Assembly (NCBI RefSeq): GCF_000015445.1
Contig: NC_008783.1
Coordinates: forward strand, 937,001-1,001,000
Length of the DNA: 64,000 nt
Reading direction: 5' to 3'
From: Bartonella bacilliformis KC583
GTDB lineage: Bacteria > Pseudomonadota > Alphaproteobacteria > Rhizobiales > Rhizobiaceae
The notes beneath the pieces were generated by a model. It had not been told where the DNA came from and ran no database searches. It saw nothing but the letters and a program-made list of their open reading frames with translations. Positions 17,927-58,304 of this stretch are shown in pieces (the first letter of the stretch is position 1; each line of letters opens with the position of its first letter). The position numbers and the translations under genes were made by a program.

Positions 17927-18056
17927 TTTATACCACCTCCAAATAATTAGCGACCACATTGCACAGCCGCATCGTAAAGTTTTTAGGGTAATTAGAGGAT
18001 TTAAAATATTAACAACCCCCCTTCCCCAAAAACTATTCTTCCTCTATACTTAGAAA

Positions 18057-18376
18057 GCTGGTTTTCTAGCTATGGTAATAAATGGACAATGAAATAAGCT
18101 CATTGGACCCGGGGGCGGTACCCGGCGCCTCCACCAAAGTATAATTGAAGGAATTATACTTTGGCGGGGGCGAAATAGGATCGACAAGAGTGTAAAGATT
18201 GCTCTTTTACTCGGCATTGTACCACCGTTATCGGACTAAATGAGTAGTTGCAAATGACAACTATGCGGAAGCACGTCTCGCCGCTTAAGCGGTGCGAATG
18301 TTTCAAACTAAGTCTTAATCTGTCGCAAGGTTAAGCGGGGTTCGAAGGCACCTGGCAACAGAAGCCTTCACTTTTT
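18057..18376 (+). ncRNA. ssrA: tmRNA, circularly permuted two-piece type
   Basis: Rescues stalled ribosomes and adds a degradation tag. The gene is permuted as in other alphaproteobacteria. The acceptor piece comes first (about 18057-18136), ending CGCCTCC-ACCA after a T-arm CCGGG/CCCGG. A linker follows, then the coding piece starting GGGGGCG at 18166, which pairs with CGCCTCC to form the acceptor stem. The tag reading frame is at 18250-18288 and encodes ANDNYAEARLAA followed by TAA, the typical alphaproteobacterial tag. The GGATCGAC motif after the 5' stem is also typical. A TATACT at 18045-18050 is a possible -10 box, though no good -35 box was seen. Outer ends are approximate. Confidence 0.95.
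18134..18164 (+). other. tmRNA linker hairpin removed on processing
   Basis: Perfect 13-bp inverted repeat, CCAAAGTATAATT (18134-18146) and AATTATACTTTGG (18152-18164), with loop GAAGG. The mature 3' CCA of the acceptor piece is paired inside the stem. The linker between CCA and the 5' end of the coding piece is excised to give the two-piece tmRNA. Confidence 0.85.
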
Positions 18377-18378
18377 CA
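18344..18378 (+). terminator. Terminator of ssrA
   Basis: Stem GAAGGC and GCCTTC separated by about 15 bases, followed by a short T-run at 18372-18376, immediately after the last conserved tmRNA sequence. Confidence 0.75.
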
Positions 18379-18539
18379 TGCATTATTTTTAACCTGTTAG
18401 ACATTATTTATCGAAAAATTCATACTTTCTCTTATTAATAAGGTGCATAGTGGAAAAAATATTGCTAACTTAAATGAATATTTCATTTCATATGTTGCTC
18501 GTACTAAGTTACCTTATAAAATAAAGGAAATAAACTTCG

Positions 18540-42587: not shown

Positions 42588-43994
42588 TTACAATTCGTGT
42601 TTATTTAACTGCATAACAAAAGATATGAAAGCCTCTCCACGCATTTCATAATTCTTAAACTGATCATAACTTGCACACGCTGGGGACAATAAAACAACTG
42701 CCTCTTTCACCTTTTCATGAGACGCATCAATAGCAGCTTCACGCACAGCATTCTCTAAGGTTAAACTCATGGAAATAGGAAAAGAAGAGCCAATAACGCG
42801 AACAAAATCTTCTGCTGCTTCCCCAATCAAATAAGCTTTACGGATTTTAGGAAAAAATTTTCTCAAAGCACCAATTCCACCTTCTTTTGCTTTCCCTCCT
42901 AAAATCCAAAAAATATCATCAAAGGTAGCAAGAGCAACAGCTGATGCATCTGCATTGGTAGCCTTACTATCATTGATAAACAAAACCGATCCAATTTTAC
43001 GCACCTGCTGCATACGATGCGCAAGCCCTGCATAACTGACTAAATGCTTCTCTAAGTGTGGATCAGTAATTTTTAATGCCTGCAATGTTGCCAAAACCAT
43101 AAGAGCATTTTGTGCATTATGACTACCGCGTAATGAGGTAACAGCAGCAAGATCAACAAGCATATGGCGCTGCCCATGACGAACAGAAAAAAGTTGTGTT
43201 CCTTCTACATAAAAACCATTTTCAACAAAATGTTTCTTAGAAATAGCCTCAACTTGATGCTTCTCGTCCACAAGTTGTTGATACAAAGTTTTACAGGCCG
43301 CATCATCAACTGAAATTAAAGCATGGGACGCTCTAGAAACTAAAAGCCCTTTTACCTGAGCATAATGAGCAAAGGTACCATGACGATCAATATGATCCGG
43401 TGTTAGATTCAACAAAATACCGATAGTTGGTTGAAGAGAAGGTGCTAAATCAATCTGAAATGATGAACATTCAATAACATAAATACGTTTTTTAACAAAT
43501 GGCTTCAGTGTTAATATCGCTGTTCCAACATTCCCCCCCATCTGCACATCATAACCCATTTGTTCTAAAAGATGAACAAGCAAAGTCGTGGTCGTCGATT
43601 TACCATTTGTACCAGTAATAGCAATAAATGGAACATCCCAATCGCAAAAATCATATTGTTGCAAAAAATGATTCCGCGCGCGGACAAATAATTCAATATC
43701 ACCAATGACTTCTACATTTTCTTGACGTGCTTTATCAACAACCCAATGGGGCTTTGGATAAAATAAAGGCACTCCAGGTGCTAAGATTAATGCAACAAAT
43801 TCTGACCAATCCTCATGATGAAGATCCCTCGTTGCAATATTTTCTTTACAAGCGGCTTCCACACCAGCAGGATTATCATCCCACGCAATGACTTCTGCCC
43901 CACCAGAGATGAGCGCTTGTGCTGTTGCCAAACCTGATTTCCCTAATCCAAATAGAGCAACTTTTTTACCTTTATAACACTCAACAGAAATCAC
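42588..43994 (-). CDS. murD: UDP-N-acetylmuramoylalanine--D-glutamate ligase
   Basis: Adds D-Glu to UDP-MurNAc-L-Ala; 468 aa with a GTG start. The N-terminal [17 protein letters not shown] is the UDP-binding Rossmann motif. The ATP loop [14 protein letters not shown], central [25 protein letters not shown] and the C-terminal [17 protein letters not shown] and [16 protein letters not shown] are all MurD signatures. A 113-bp spacer follows before ftsW; mraY ends four bases upstream. Confidence 0.96.
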
Positions 43995-51108: not shown

Positions 51109-51352
51109 AATAACCCAATCTTGATTTATGTTTTTGCAGATCAACAGCCATCAATGGTAGATAACATCATCATAATCAAAACTTTAACTTTCATGTCTAT
51201 TTAAAGCTAAAATTGATCCAACATGCTACGTTAGCTCATTATACTTAAAAAAATATTATGATTTTTAAAATCATCTCCTCTTAAGCGCGTAATTCAAAAA
51301 CAAAAAACAAGCCTTCAAAGAAACTTATATAAACACCGTATAAATAAATATC

Positions 51353-51733
51353 AGTCGGCCTATAAGCCGGGTTCTGTATGGTAAAGCTTATACTTTACAT
51401 GGCAACCATTCATCTAGGACGGATGTTACCATCCGCCTCGTGCAACCTACCCAAATGACTCACCTGGAAACTGGCTGCAAGCCAAACCTTGCACGTCATT
51501 TCTATTTGGTCTTGCTCCCGGTGGGGTTTACCTTGCCACACCCATTACTGCGTGCGCGGTGAGCTCTTACCTCACCTTTTCACCCTTACCTATAAAAATA
51601 GGCGGTTTGCTTTCTGTGGCACTTTCCCTAGGGTCACCCCCGCCGGGTGTTACCCGGCACCGTTTTTCCATGGAGCCCGGACTTTCCTCACCTATCTTAA
51701 CATGAGACAAGCGCGGCTGCCCAGCCGACTGAT
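51353..51733 (-). ncRNA. rnpB: RNase P RNA (bacterial type A)
   Basis: Catalytic RNA of RNase P, which matures tRNA 5' ends. Read on the minus strand, the 5' part (complement of 51672-51690) is the hallmark GAGGAAAGTCCGGGCTCC. The 3' end (complement of 51356-51380) is ACAGAACCCGGCTTATAGG followed by CCGACTG, which pairs with CAGTCGGC at the 5' end. The length of about 380 nt fits alphaproteobacterial RNase P RNA. The gene lies about 240 bp upstream of rsmH in the same orientation. End positions are set by the terminal pairing and may be off by a few bases. Confidence 0.95.
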
Positions 51734-52205: not shown

Positions 52206-52565
52206 TTACAAATTAGTATCTATAACAGAAGAACGAGAAATTGCTTTTAATGCAATTGCAGTAACAGTTTTACCAAATTTTTGTGCTTGTTCATTGTTCT
52301 GACCACTCGCAAGAACAGCAAAAATTGCATCCCGACGTGCTTGGTCAACAACACTTTGTTTTTTTTGAGTATCTATTTTAGAAAAGCTCATTGCAACACC
52401 TGAAAAAAACGTCGCCAGATCTTCTGAAAGTATACCTTTTGTTATTACTATCTGGTGAGAAAAAATCATCTTTTTTACAGATTGATAAGCCAAAAAACTA
52501 ACAGCAAAAACTAATAAAAAAAATAAAATGAGAAAAATAATACGATGCCAACAGAATTTTATCAT
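52206..52565 (-). CDS. Hypothetical single-pass membrane protein
   Basis: 119 aa, not recognised. Residues 8-28 form one strong TM segment or uncleaved signal anchor (RIIFLILFFLLVFAVSFLA). The rest (about 90 residues) is probably periplasmic and contains KKQSVVDQARRDAIFAVLASGQ, a helical segment. Codon use looks coding and a GGAC precedes the ATG, so I regard it as a real gene, probably lineage-restricted. It sits downstream of the candidate sRNA with the hairpin terminator between them. Confidence 0.55.
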   Translation of the reverse strand: MIKFCWHRIIFLILFFLLVFAVSFLAYQSVKKMIFSHQIVITKGILSEDLATFFSGVAMSFSKIDTQKKQSVVDQARRDAIFAVLASGQNNEQAQKFGKTVTAIALKAISRSSVIDTNL

Positions 52566-52773: not shown

Positions 52774-52808
52774 ATAAAAAAACCCGACTGAAAAATTTCA
52801 GTCGGGCC
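52774..52808 (-). terminator. Strong Rho-independent terminator (minus strand)
   Basis: Perfect inverted repeat CCCGACTGAA (52783-52792) and TTCAGTCGGG (52797-52806) with a four-base loop, followed on the minus strand by seven T (plus-strand A, 52776-52782). It has no annotated gene directly upstream other than the candidate sRNA. Confidence 0.93.
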
Positions 52809-52920
52809 AAAAACTCTCAGGGATCCACGCGGGGGGGGGGGGGGAGAGGCTCCCTGATTGTCCTTGATCACATCGATTCTAGATCATCGATGAGACACCC
52901 CTGCTATGGAATAAAATATT
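52776..52920 (-). ncRNA. Candidate small RNA with a C14 loop (approximate ends)
   Basis: On the minus strand three hairpins follow one another. The first is CATCGAT/ATCGATG (52871-52877 and 52886-52892) with loop sequence containing TCTAGA. The second is CAGGGA/TCCCTG (52818-52823 and 52851-52856), whose loop includes 14 consecutive C (plus-strand G, 52831-52844). The last is a strong terminator stem with seven T. No convincing ORF lies here. Stacked hairpins with a C-rich loop and terminator resemble trans-acting alphaproteobacterial sRNAs that pair with Shine-Dalgarno sequences. The 5' end and promoter were not identified, so this is a structural prediction only. Confidence 0.45.
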
Positions 52921-53531
52921 TTAAACAACAAGAAATTCTTGTCATTTTTTCCAAAAAAAAAGTAAAAATTATTACTAATCTTGTAAAAATGAAAAAATTT
53001 AGGCAAAAAATACTAAACCCGGCCCAATTTGAAGCAATTTTGTTTTAAAATATATCCATAAGATTTTTCTGCTTATTGGAATTTATATTATAATTTTTAC
53101 AAAAAAATCTTTTGCTATAATAATTAAAAACAATAAGAAGTTTTTACGAATCAAATCCTAATTAATCGGTAAATCACGCAAACTGAATTAGTATGCTTCA
53201 AAATATAAAAATGAAAATCCTCAATACCATATTTTACTACACAAGCACTTTATTCCAAGAATAGTGCATCAGCATGTCAACCGCATAACCATATATAAAT
53301 GCTAACCATAACAGTTTGACTAATAATAATTGCTTTCACACACCATCGATCCAATAAAACAATAGATTATTTACTTTGTGAAAGCCATGATCAAAACTTG
53401 TTCTCTTTTCATCTCCCATGCAATGAAGAGACACTGGCAACATGGAATATAATTTGCTTTTTGAAAAATTTAGACGACACAAACATATCGATACTTTTTA
53501 AATTTAAATAGCTTATACAAGAAGAAGAATA
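52921..53531. other. Intergenic region between ettA and the candidate sRNA
   Basis: About 610 bp of AT-rich sequence, with no supported ORF, hairpin or RNA gene. It could hold the promoter for the minus-strand candidate sRNA. No terminator for ettA was recognised. Confidence 0.4.
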
Positions 53532-55181
53532 TTAGCGTGTGAGTGGCTTATAATTCACACGCTTAAGATTAAGCGCATCTGGGCCAAGACGGCGAATCTT
53601 ATCTGCTTCATAGTCAGCAAAATTACCTTCAAACCATTCCACATGACCATTACTTTCAAAAGCCAAAATATGCGTTGCTAATCGATCAAGAAACATACGA
53701 TCGTGCGATATAATAACGGCACAACCAGCAAAATTTTCTAAAGCGTCTTCCAATGCACCTAATGTTTCCGTATCAAGATCATTGGTTGGTTCATCGAGAA
53801 GAAGAACATTGCCTCCCTCTTTTAAAAGCTTAGCCAAATGTACACGATTACGCTGCCCACCTGACAAATCAGTCACTTTTTGCTGCTGGTCCCCACCCTT
53901 AAAGTTAAAAGCACCACAATAAGCACGACTGTTCATTTCATATTTGCCTAACTTGATAATATCATTGCCGCCAGAAATTTCCTCCCAAACAGTCTTCTCA
54001 CCCTGCAACGTATCACGACTCTGATCAACATAACTTATCTGAACTGTCTCCCCAATGCGTATTTTCCCTGAGTCTGGTTGTTCTTGCCCTGTTAACATCT
54101 TAAATAAAGTAGATTTCCCTACACCATTGGCACCAATGACCCCAACAATCCCACCGGCAGGAAGCTTGAAAGAGAGAGAATCTATCAACACGCGATCACC
54201 ATAGGCTTTTGACAGACGATCAACTTCAATAATAACCTGGCCTAATCTTTCACCAACAGGAATAATAATTTGTGCATCACCAGGGCGACGTTCATGCGCA
54301 GCCTGAACCAATTCATCATAAGCCTTGATACGAGCTTTTGATTTTGCTTGACGTGCTTTTGGGCTAGAGGAAATCCATTCTTTTTCGCGTGATAACGCAC
54401 GCTGACGAGTAACCTCTTCACGACCCTCCTGCGCCATACGTTTAGCTTTAGCATCCAAATAAGCAGAATAATTCCCCTCATAAGGAATGCCTTTGCCACG
54501 ATCCAATTCTAAAATCCAACCTGTTACATTATCGAGAAAATAACGATCGTGCGTAATCAAAAGGACCGCACCTGGATATTCACGCAAATGTTTTTCAAGC
54601 CAAGCCGTCGTTTCTGCGTCTAAATGATTTGTAGGTTCATCCAAAAGCAATAAATCAGGTTTTGATAAAAGCAATTTACAAAGTGCAACACGCCGCTTTT
54701 CACCGCCTGAAAGTTTTGTTACACTCTCGTTTGTTGGTGGACAATTAAGAGCGGCCATAGCCATTTTCACTTGGCTTTCTAAGTCCCAAAGATTCTGGCT
54801 ATCGATAATATCCTGAAGTTTAGCGCTTTCATCAGCTGTTTCATCATTATAATTCATCATTAATTCATTATAGCGATCTATGATCGCCTGCTTATCTGCA
54901 ACGCCTTCCATTACATTGCCATACACATCCTTATTTTCATCAAGAACAGGCTCTTGCGGAAGATAACCACAACGCGCCCCCTCAGCAAGCCATGCTTCCC
55001 CCGTGTATTCTTTATCCAATCCAGCCATAATGCGTAAAATAGTCGATTTACCTGCACCATTTGGTCCCAAAATGCCAATCTTTGCATCCGGATAAAAGGA
55101 CAGATGAATATCCTCTAAAATTTTTTTATTACCGTAAGCTTTACTGACCCCATCCATATGGTAGATAAATTGGCGTGCCAT
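53532..55181 (-). CDS. ettA: ABC-F translational throttle protein EttA
   Basis: Soluble twin-ATPase that binds the ribosomal E site and gates elongation according to ATP level; 549 aa. First ATPase: Walker A GPNGAGKST at 39-47, signature TKLSGGEKRRVALCKLL, Walker B LLLLDEPTNHLDAET. The interdomain linker (about 245-310) carries the P-site-tRNA interaction motif region. Second ATPase: GANGVGKST, signature TDLSGGQRNRVHLAKLL, and VLLLDEPTNDLDTET. The conserved arm LDENKDVYGNVMEGV matches EttA rather than Uup or YheS. There are no TM segments, so it is not a transporter. Confidence 0.94.
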   Translation of the reverse strand: MARQFIYHMDGVSKAYGNKKILEDIHLSFYPDAKIGILGPNGAGKSTILRIMAGLDKEYTGEAWLAEGARCGYLPQEPVLDENKDVYGNVMEGVADKQAIIDRYNELMMNYNDETADESAKLQDIIDSQNLWDLESQVKMAMAALNCPPTNESVTKLSGGEKRRVALCKLLLSKPDLLLLDEPTNHLDAETTAWLEKHLREYPGAVLLITHDRYFLDNVTGWILELDRGKGIPYEGNYSAYLDAKAKRMAQEGREEVTRQRALSREKEWISSSPKARQAKSKARIKAYDELVQAAHERRPGDAQIIIPVGERLGQVIIEVDRLSKAYGDRVLIDSLSFKLPAGGIVGVIGANGVGKSTLFKMLTGQEQPDSGKIRIGETVQISYVDQSRDTLQGEKTVWEEISGGNDIIKLGKYEMNSRAYCGAFNFKGGDQQQKVTDLSGGQRNRVHLAKLLKEGGNVLLLDEPTNDLDTETLGALEDALENFAGCAVIISHDRMFLDRLATHILAFESNGHVEWFEGNFADYEADKIRRLGPDALNLKRVNYKPLTR

Positions 55182-57764: not shown

Positions 57765-58304
57765 GTGGCACGTCCTGAAACTGAAGCAAAAACCGTATTT
57801 GGAAAGCGTTTGCGTCACATTCGCCTCGCTTTAGGCGATCCATCACGTGAAACATTAGCTAAAAATTTTAACATGACAAAGAACTCCATTGCTTTTTATG
57901 AGCGAGGAGAAAGAGAACCTAATCTTAGTGTATTACAAGCATATCGGACATTATATGGAGTCAATATTAATTGGCTTTTAACAGGCCAAGGAAAAATGTT
58001 TGATACTGAATATACCAGAAGTGAATTTGACTGGAATTACTTTATTAAAAAAATTGAAACGATTGAAGATATTCTTACTAACAGCGATTACAGTGATATA
58101 CTCAATCAAAATAAACTTAAAAAATCTTATGAAAAATTGCAAAAATATCCACTGGCACAGAGTATATCGAATAATCTTAATCCAAAAGCAATCGCTTCCC
58201 TGGTCAATATGAAAGCAAATATGGCAAATTCTTATGCTCTTAGTTTGTTTATAGAGCTCCTTATTCGAAGCATATCGCATAAAGATACTACAGCTAATCA
58301 ATAA
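57765..58304 (+). CDS. XRE-family transcriptional regulator
   Basis: 179 aa with a GTG start and GAGGGAG seven bases upstream. The N-terminal helix-turn-helix (about residues 9-65) reads FGKRLRHIRLALGDPSRETL then AKNFNMTKNSIAFYERGE, the Cro/C1 type with recognition helix around TKNSIAFYERG. The INWLLTGQGKMF segment that ends the domain is common in phage-repressor-like regulators. The C-terminal 100 residues are helical with no recognised ligand or peptidase domain and no LexA-type catalytic residues. It might repress its own promoter and the divergent DUF475 gene. Confidence 0.88.
   Translation: MARPETEAKTVFGKRLRHIRLALGDPSRETLAKNFNMTKNSIAFYERGEREPNLSVLQAYRTLYGVNINWLLTGQGKMFDTEYTRSEFDWNYFIKKIETIEDILTNSDYSDILNQNKLKKSYEKLQKYPLAQSISNNLNPKAIASLVNMKANMANSYALSLFIELLIRSISHKDTTANQ

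Follow-up and report, generated by a model that had tools for sequence, protein, structure and literature searches.

The minus strand of the Bartonella bacilliformis genome was found to carry what is probably a stand-alone sRNA gene of ~124 nt, which has its own sigma-70-type promoter and terminator, occurs genus-wide and would act in trans through a C-rich loop on G-rich stretches of mRNAs. The analysed window is a stretch of 64,000 nucleotides, bases 937001-1001000 of the 1,445,021-bp genome, and positions below refer to it. By sequence inspection, a promoter, three hairpins and a strong terminator follow one another in that order on the minus strand (~52899-52776). The limits of the gene (52776-52899, minus strand) rest on the predicted fold, on blastn and covariance-model matches in 71/71 Bartonella genomes and on a drop in conservation past the terminator. 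Judged by its sequence, the element is a genuine sRNA gene, whose transcription we infer. An independent minus-strand sRNA gene had been proposed in a preliminary description of this DNA, and this proposal was borne out: promoter, stems, loop and terminator are kept throughout the genus, with compensatory changes.

Gene limits, promoter and predicted fold

The three minus-strand hairpins and the strong terminator of the preliminary description are present; the end reads GGCCCGACTGAAATTTTTCAGTCGGG followed by seven T, with 12 pairs. Also correct was its statement that no gene lies directly upstream. The nearest gene on the same strand (53532-55181; Pfam ABC_tran and ABC_tran_Xtn) encodes an ABC-F ATPase, which we take to be ettA-like, and ends at 53532, ~630 nt away. 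The RNA had been drawn as reaching to 52920. Its T run occupies 52782-52776, and its 5' end was probably placed too far upstream, transcription most likely starting near 52898. Past the terminator, column identity falls from 0.90 to 0.65 and then to ~0.55 (ten-base blocks, 57 genomes; range 0.47-0.65). The own genome contains a single full-length copy of the element.

The RNA of 52899-52776 folds at -51.0 kcal/mol, compared to a shuffle mean of -33.4 (sd 3.65; z -4.8), and 0/200 shuffles were as stable. For a longer piece (52911-52776) z was -3.9, with 1/200 shuffles as stable. The predicted fold consists of hairpin P1 with a variable loop (52867-52896, 9 pairs), hairpin P2 with the C-rich loop at its tip (52808-52866, 15 pairs), and the intrinsic terminator hairpin P3 with its T run (52776-52807, 11 pairs), all on the minus strand; P3 was found by pattern scan as well as by folding.

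The gene is preceded by a predicted promoter of the alphaproteobacterial sigma-70 type, CTTGTT-N17-CCATAG (52904-52932, minus strand), which is conserved across genomes; column identity is 0.89-0.98 per ten-base block over 57 genomes. The pattern CTTG-N19-[CT]CATA precedes the RNA in 65/71 genomes, namely 53/57 of the main clade and 12/14 of B. tamiae and the B. apis group (by which we mean the 13 divergent genomes other than B. tamiae, presumably of bee origin). A looser form occurs in 3/71, and 3/71 have none. Shuffles are expected to give 0.04/71, and windows farther upstream gave 0/213. This promoter pattern is in line with the sigma-70 consensus of alphaproteobacteria, which the accessible text of PMC7717549 gives as CTTGAC-N17-CTATAT. 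An alternative sigma-70 site from the pattern scan (52945-52918) was set aside, because CTTG-N19-YCATA is the site kept across genomes. The sigma-EcfG promoter motif is GGAAC-N16/17-CGTT; the pattern GGAACN{14,18}CGTT had 0 matches in the window.

The -35 region is overlapped by an inverted repeat, AAGAANTTCTT (52930-52940), a possible operator that is near-invariant in the 57 main-clade genomes and was not seen upstream of the RNA in B. tamiae and the B. apis group. Since the window holds one exact site, a hit on both strands, and six listed matches at up to one mismatch compare with 3.8 expected, no regulon can be claimed for the repeat. A second conserved block lies ~100-140 nt upstream of the start site (53041-53001, minus strand). 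It has an identity of 0.84-0.99 per ten-base block over 57 genomes, contains ATTGCTTCAAATTGG and TTTTTTGCCT, and is possibly a regulator site or a second promoter.

Distribution, covariation and gene neighbourhood

A blastn search with a 181-base query gave a single match per genome in 58/71 Bartonella genomes. In B. tamiae (G063) the match covered 38 nt only, and this genome was omitted from alignment A1, which comprises the other 57 matched genomes, was not fitted to the structure and is the source of covariance model R1. R1 found the element in all 13 genomes missed by blastn, and at full length in B. tamiae; this search matched 15/15 genomes, the own genome included (E 1.3e-19 to 2.5e-4). 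The element is thus carried by 71/71 Bartonella genomes, 58 by blastn and the 13 misses by the covariance model. A covariance search had been suggested in the preliminary description. The set extends to B. tamiae and to the B. apis group; B. apis, B. apihabitans, B. choladocola and B. tamiae are among the divergent genomes. At E 0.001 the model gave 84 matches in 71 loci. The 13 extras (E 0.0003 or more), which lay on the opposite strand or overlapped the terminator, were dropped by a stricter threshold, and a further, weak match in G056 (E 0.2) was not used. The RNA thus seems to be a conserved, apparently ancestral riboregulator of Bartonella, present in pathogens and in bee-associated species. 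Because the latter carry it, it is open to study in Bartonella that do not infect mammals.

Further support for the fold is provided by covariation. In A1, 98.6% of the cells form standard pairs and 11/35 pairs show changes on both sides. Seventy-six cells changed on both sides, compared to a shuffled mean of 21.7; the covariation score was reached by 0/500 shuffles and the number of both-side-changed pairs by 2/500. The number of pair types was in little excess (38 versus 35.9 in shuffles, reached by 56/500). When partners were slid by one to three columns, pairing dropped to 31-44%. Both-side changes were found in 29/35 pairs of A4, the alignment of 71 genomes, a count that leans towards the model because A4 was fitted to it. 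For P1, four of the 9 pairs changed on both sides in A1 and 9/9 in A4. P2 is paired in 99.3% of cells over 57 genomes, with both-side changes in only 2/15 pairs of A1 (11/15 in A4), and P3 in 99.4%, with such changes in 5 of its 11 pairs (A1). Compensatory changes across species, whose absence had been named beforehand as counting against an sRNA, are present and favour one.

Scans beyond the genus sampled part of the Rhizobiales with stricter filters that lose weak matches, so that relatives outside Bartonella may be missed. The family scan with R1 matched 6/247 genomes, four of Bartonella and two others (G165 and G276), and the order scan with R2 matched 6/297, two of Bartonella and four others (E 0.002-0.009). 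The six matches outside Bartonella scored 27.9-31.5 bits, and none has a run of at least five C followed by GC at the loop position. Such a run is absent from G165, G276 and two of the four order-scan loci; L111 has one close to the match's 3' end, L110 one outside the match. The six were regarded as weak, chance or terminator matches. From these samples, the sRNA gene is apparently restricted to the genus. A scan for relatives of metF, which addressed synteny beyond the genus, gave 15 loci, 13 of Bartonella and two of Alphaproteobacteria beyond it.

The arrangement of neighbouring genes bears on a reading in which the RNA is a cis element only, either the 3' end or terminator of an mRNA starting far upstream or a leader or attenuator of the next gene. 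That gene (52206-52565, minus strand) encodes a 119-aa protein with no Pfam family. It was located by tblastn and serves as a synteny marker that is not part of the sRNA. In the window it starts ~210 nt downstream of the RNA on the same strand, and the pattern scan shows no other minus-strand terminator between the stop of the ettA-like gene (53532) and the RNA. Both observations speak for such a role. By tblastn, the 119-aa gene adjoins the RNA in 28/30 loci of ~3 kb (another 28 loci, at ~1.2 kb, did not extend far enough to tell). Of eight wider loci from B. tamiae and the B. apis group, six have it near the RNA. However, in each of the five loci whose genes were read one by one (B. tamiae and four of the B. 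apis group), the RNA and the 119-aa gene are separated by opposite-strand genes, so the RNA is no leader in these loci. On the upstream side, an ettA-like gene is found within 1.5 kb in 10/30 loci and an ArsR-like regulator, by eye, in L007 and L013; in three main-clade loci that were read (L005, L007, L013), no metF adjoined the sRNA. In L093, L094, L095, L097 and L098, which are B. tamiae and four of the B. apis group, the sRNA was seen by eye to stand behind arsR-like/methyltransferase and metF-like genes. With an upstream gene that differs between lineages, the RNA does not form a constant 3' UTR. Any fixed role of this sort, as leader or as 3' UTR, is unlikely, and synteny ruled out the cis-only reading as the main one. 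The conserved promoter immediately before the RNA also argues against it, as do the extra stems and the invariant loop, which termination does not need. We consider it very unlikely that the element acts in cis only.

The 119-aa protein has a hydrophobic N-terminus, and its gene stands beside the sRNA in most loci checked. Further downstream, the window encodes a class A RNase P RNA (51347-51732); a permuted alphaproteobacterial tmRNA lies at 18018-18379.

The C-rich loop and how it may act

P2 presents a C-rich terminal loop, UCU-C(14)-GCGU (52827-52847, minus strand). The run of 14 C that had been described in the middle hairpin is there, the plus-strand G run at 52831-52844 being exactly 14 long. 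The predicted loop exceeds this run and measures 21 nt (UCU, 14 C and GCGU). No other C or G run of at least 8 occurs in the window, where the sole other run of at least 7 is 7 long (at 43533), and no other of at least 10 occurs in the whole 1.445-Mb genome. The loop core, at least five C followed by GC, is kept in 71/71 Bartonella genomes. Over the 57 genomes, the C run and GCGUGG have a column identity of 0.99. Between its closing CC and GG, the loop measures 16-22 nt in 57/57 main-clade genomes, most commonly 18-19 nt. The lower half of P2 in the B. apis group reads CAACC/GGUUG instead of AGACGAUC/GAUUGUCU, with AGGGA/UCCC retained above, and B. tamiae has AGGGAUACCA/UGGUAUCCCU. This exchange of the lower stem in the divergent set, where the C run and GC are kept, suggests that the loop is the functional part. 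A loop so constrained and so close to a homopolymer would be an unusual target-recognition element.

The length of the C run before GC varies among the 71 genomes: 5 (n = 4), 6 (13), 7 (2), 9 (2), 10 (16), 11 (16), 12 (12), 13 (5) and 14 (1, B. bacilliformis). The genomes with five C have a longer run broken by T, and those with six are the B. apis group. A 62-aa ORF crosses the tract, and a coding reading was rejected: the C run is not a coding repeat, because its lengths differ by non-multiples of three. The simplest history suggested by these sequences would be an ancestral CCCCCCGC core that was extended in the blood-borne lineage. In a fuller version, which we regard as a possible if doubtful scenario, the loop began as a fixed CCCCCCGC motif, still kept in the B. 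apis group, and expanded in the blood-borne lineage, which arthropods transmit, to a homopolymer of 9-14 C; selection would hold a working loop length, the tract would slip between species and perhaps between cells, and its length would tune the reach of the riboregulator. The RNA opens two questions to direct test, namely whether loop length affects regulation and whether slippage in an RNA gene, not in a reading frame, makes variants.

The preliminary description had called such a tract prone to slippage, so that the length of the loop, and hence its pairing with targets, could vary between cells. As a contingency locus, the run would vary in this way among the cells of one strain. Tracts as long as 10-14 C are known to slip in other bacteria, and the nearest relative, 93% identical, has 7 C against the 14 of B. 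bacilliformis. Yet the loop is held at its 16-22 nt over the 57 genomes, and the run is interrupted by T in some species. Variation of this kind within a strain seems to us rather improbable.

The reading that we prefer is of an RNA acting in trans. From its own sigma-70-type promoter a ~124-nt RNA would be made, ending at its own terminator. Stem P2 would display an unpaired loop with the C run and GC as its fixed core, and this loop would pair with G-rich stretches of several mRNAs. Pairing may then alter translation or stability of these mRNAs, as has been reported for the Caulobacter sRNA GsrN and for PmaR of Agrobacterium, a mode that fits the anatomy of the sRNA. GsrN likewise has an exposed C-rich loop, which binds G-rich mRNA sites, raises katG expression and is the most conserved part of the RNA in Caulobacteraceae; in contrast to the Bartonella RNA, its promoter is of the sigma-EcfG type, and its usual place is beside the general-stress locus (accessible text of PMC5869019). 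PmaR resembles the Bartonella RNA in its long stem with a single-stranded C-rich loop. It binds its targets mainly through cytosines, at predicted sites mostly away from the ribosome site, but is spoon-like and confined to Agrobacterium and a close Rhizobium, as far as the available part of PMC6234868 describes it. Both RNAs were compared by description only.

A loop of this composition might also act as a general anti-Shine-Dalgarno element and keep ribosomes off many mRNAs, as a counterpart of BbsR14 or of the Rhizobiales sRNAs with CCUCCUCCC loops. The preliminary description had noted that the C run is complementary to purine-rich Shine-Dalgarno sequences. The RNA has CCUCCU in 42/57 main-clade genomes and CCUCC in 9 more, with neither in 6, and an sRNA with anti-Shine-Dalgarno loops, BbsR14, exists in B. 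bacilliformis according to the accessible part of PMC7717549. In a test of loop pairing energy, the start regions of 43 genes of the window were compared with control stretches. The main-clade loop with CCUCCU paired somewhat better with start regions, at a marginal p of 0.02, but there was no such bias for the B. bacilliformis loop (p 0.12) or the B. apis-type loop (p 0.31). Moreover, neither B. tamiae nor any of the 13 divergent genomes has CCUCC in its loop, where the C run and GC are kept. Pairing with Shine-Dalgarno sequences as a general mode is thus weakly supported, and blocking of many ribosome sites is unlikely as the function of the RNA. SmelA075 and SmelA099, whose CCUCCUCCC loops expose a C-rich anti-Shine-Dalgarno motif, differ in having three and four hairpins with the motif in each (available text of PMC3927594), whereas the Bartonella RNA has one such loop, a homopolymer with GC. 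An invariant single-stranded C run that tolerates changes in length would also suit a decoy or scaffold, which binds a protein or sponges G-rich sRNAs instead of mRNAs. The alphaproteobacterial C-rich loops described in the accessible parts of PMC5869019 and PMC6234868 pair with mRNA, however, and we give the decoy or scaffold only a slim chance.

Relation to described RNAs

The B. bacilliformis sRNAs of PMC7717549 were considered as the source of an existing name. In the part of that paper available to us, 160 sRNAs are counted, of which a few, BbsR9 (BB092) included, occur widely in Bartonella. BbsR9 is expressed in sand-fly-like conditions, has a promoter and a terminator, and binds ftsH, nuoF and gcvT mRNAs in vitro via GC-rich parts of a large stem-loop. 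Wide occurrence with promoter and terminator was likewise found for the present element (71/71 genomes), a trait that is not specific to BbsR9, because the same paper counts several widespread sRNAs. The fold energy of the sRNA is compatible with BbsR9 and not specific. Plausible loop pairings were predicted with nuoF (-13.3 kcal/mol), the DUF475 gene (-11.6) and gcvT (-11.2), but shuffled and unrelated RNAs reached comparable scores on this gene set. Among 48 genes, the predicted targets listed for BbsR9 ranked 3 (nuoF), 5 (DUF475 gene), 6 (gcvT), 8 (hflK), 21 (trmD) and 39 (ftsH). Together these six gave p 0.021, with lower p for 3/17 control RNAs, so that the test does not discriminate. Without the opening cost, ftsH showed a long pairing that includes UUUGGCCC with GGGCCAAA at its start. 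Comparing BbsR9 by description, we lean towards the judgement that the sRNA is BbsR9, and we rate it higher that it is somewhere among the 160.

The sRNA is of a known kind, and its family is absent from Rfam 15, where no family reached the gathering score at the locus. In 7 homologous loci, RNase P RNA was the sole Rfam match. Sub-threshold matches at the locus were to anti-hemB (30.3 of 49.5 bits), NsiR1 (28.4 of 39) and Hrs13 (24.6 of 52), and all of them include the terminator. The preliminary description had named AbcR/mmgR-like sRNAs as the nearest described analogues. Both mmgR/suhB (RF00519) and AbcR are alphaproteobacterial sRNAs with C-rich parts, but the locus scored too low for RF00519 (13.7 bits against a cut-off of 41) and 0/71 Bartonella genomes matched this family in a screen that used stricter filters for over 40 of them; no AbcR family was among the Rfam matches at the locus. 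Membership in mmgR was rejected. No poly-C loop in a Bartonella sRNA is described in the accessible text of the literature searched, which included PMC7717549, PMC3927594, PMC2245857, PMC5387305, PMC5869019, PMC6234868, PMC12559287 and PMC8070961, with supplements and closed-access papers outside the scope of the search.

The Brt RNAs of Bartonella are multicopy, each ~15 nt upstream of an HTH (trp) gene, in the accessible part of PMC8070961. Assignment to this group was rejected, as the present element has one full-length copy and is followed by the gene for the 119-aa protein without a Pfam match. An HTH_3 regulator gene was noted elsewhere in the window, at 57765-58304; in B. henselae, Brt RNAs are followed by genes of this type.
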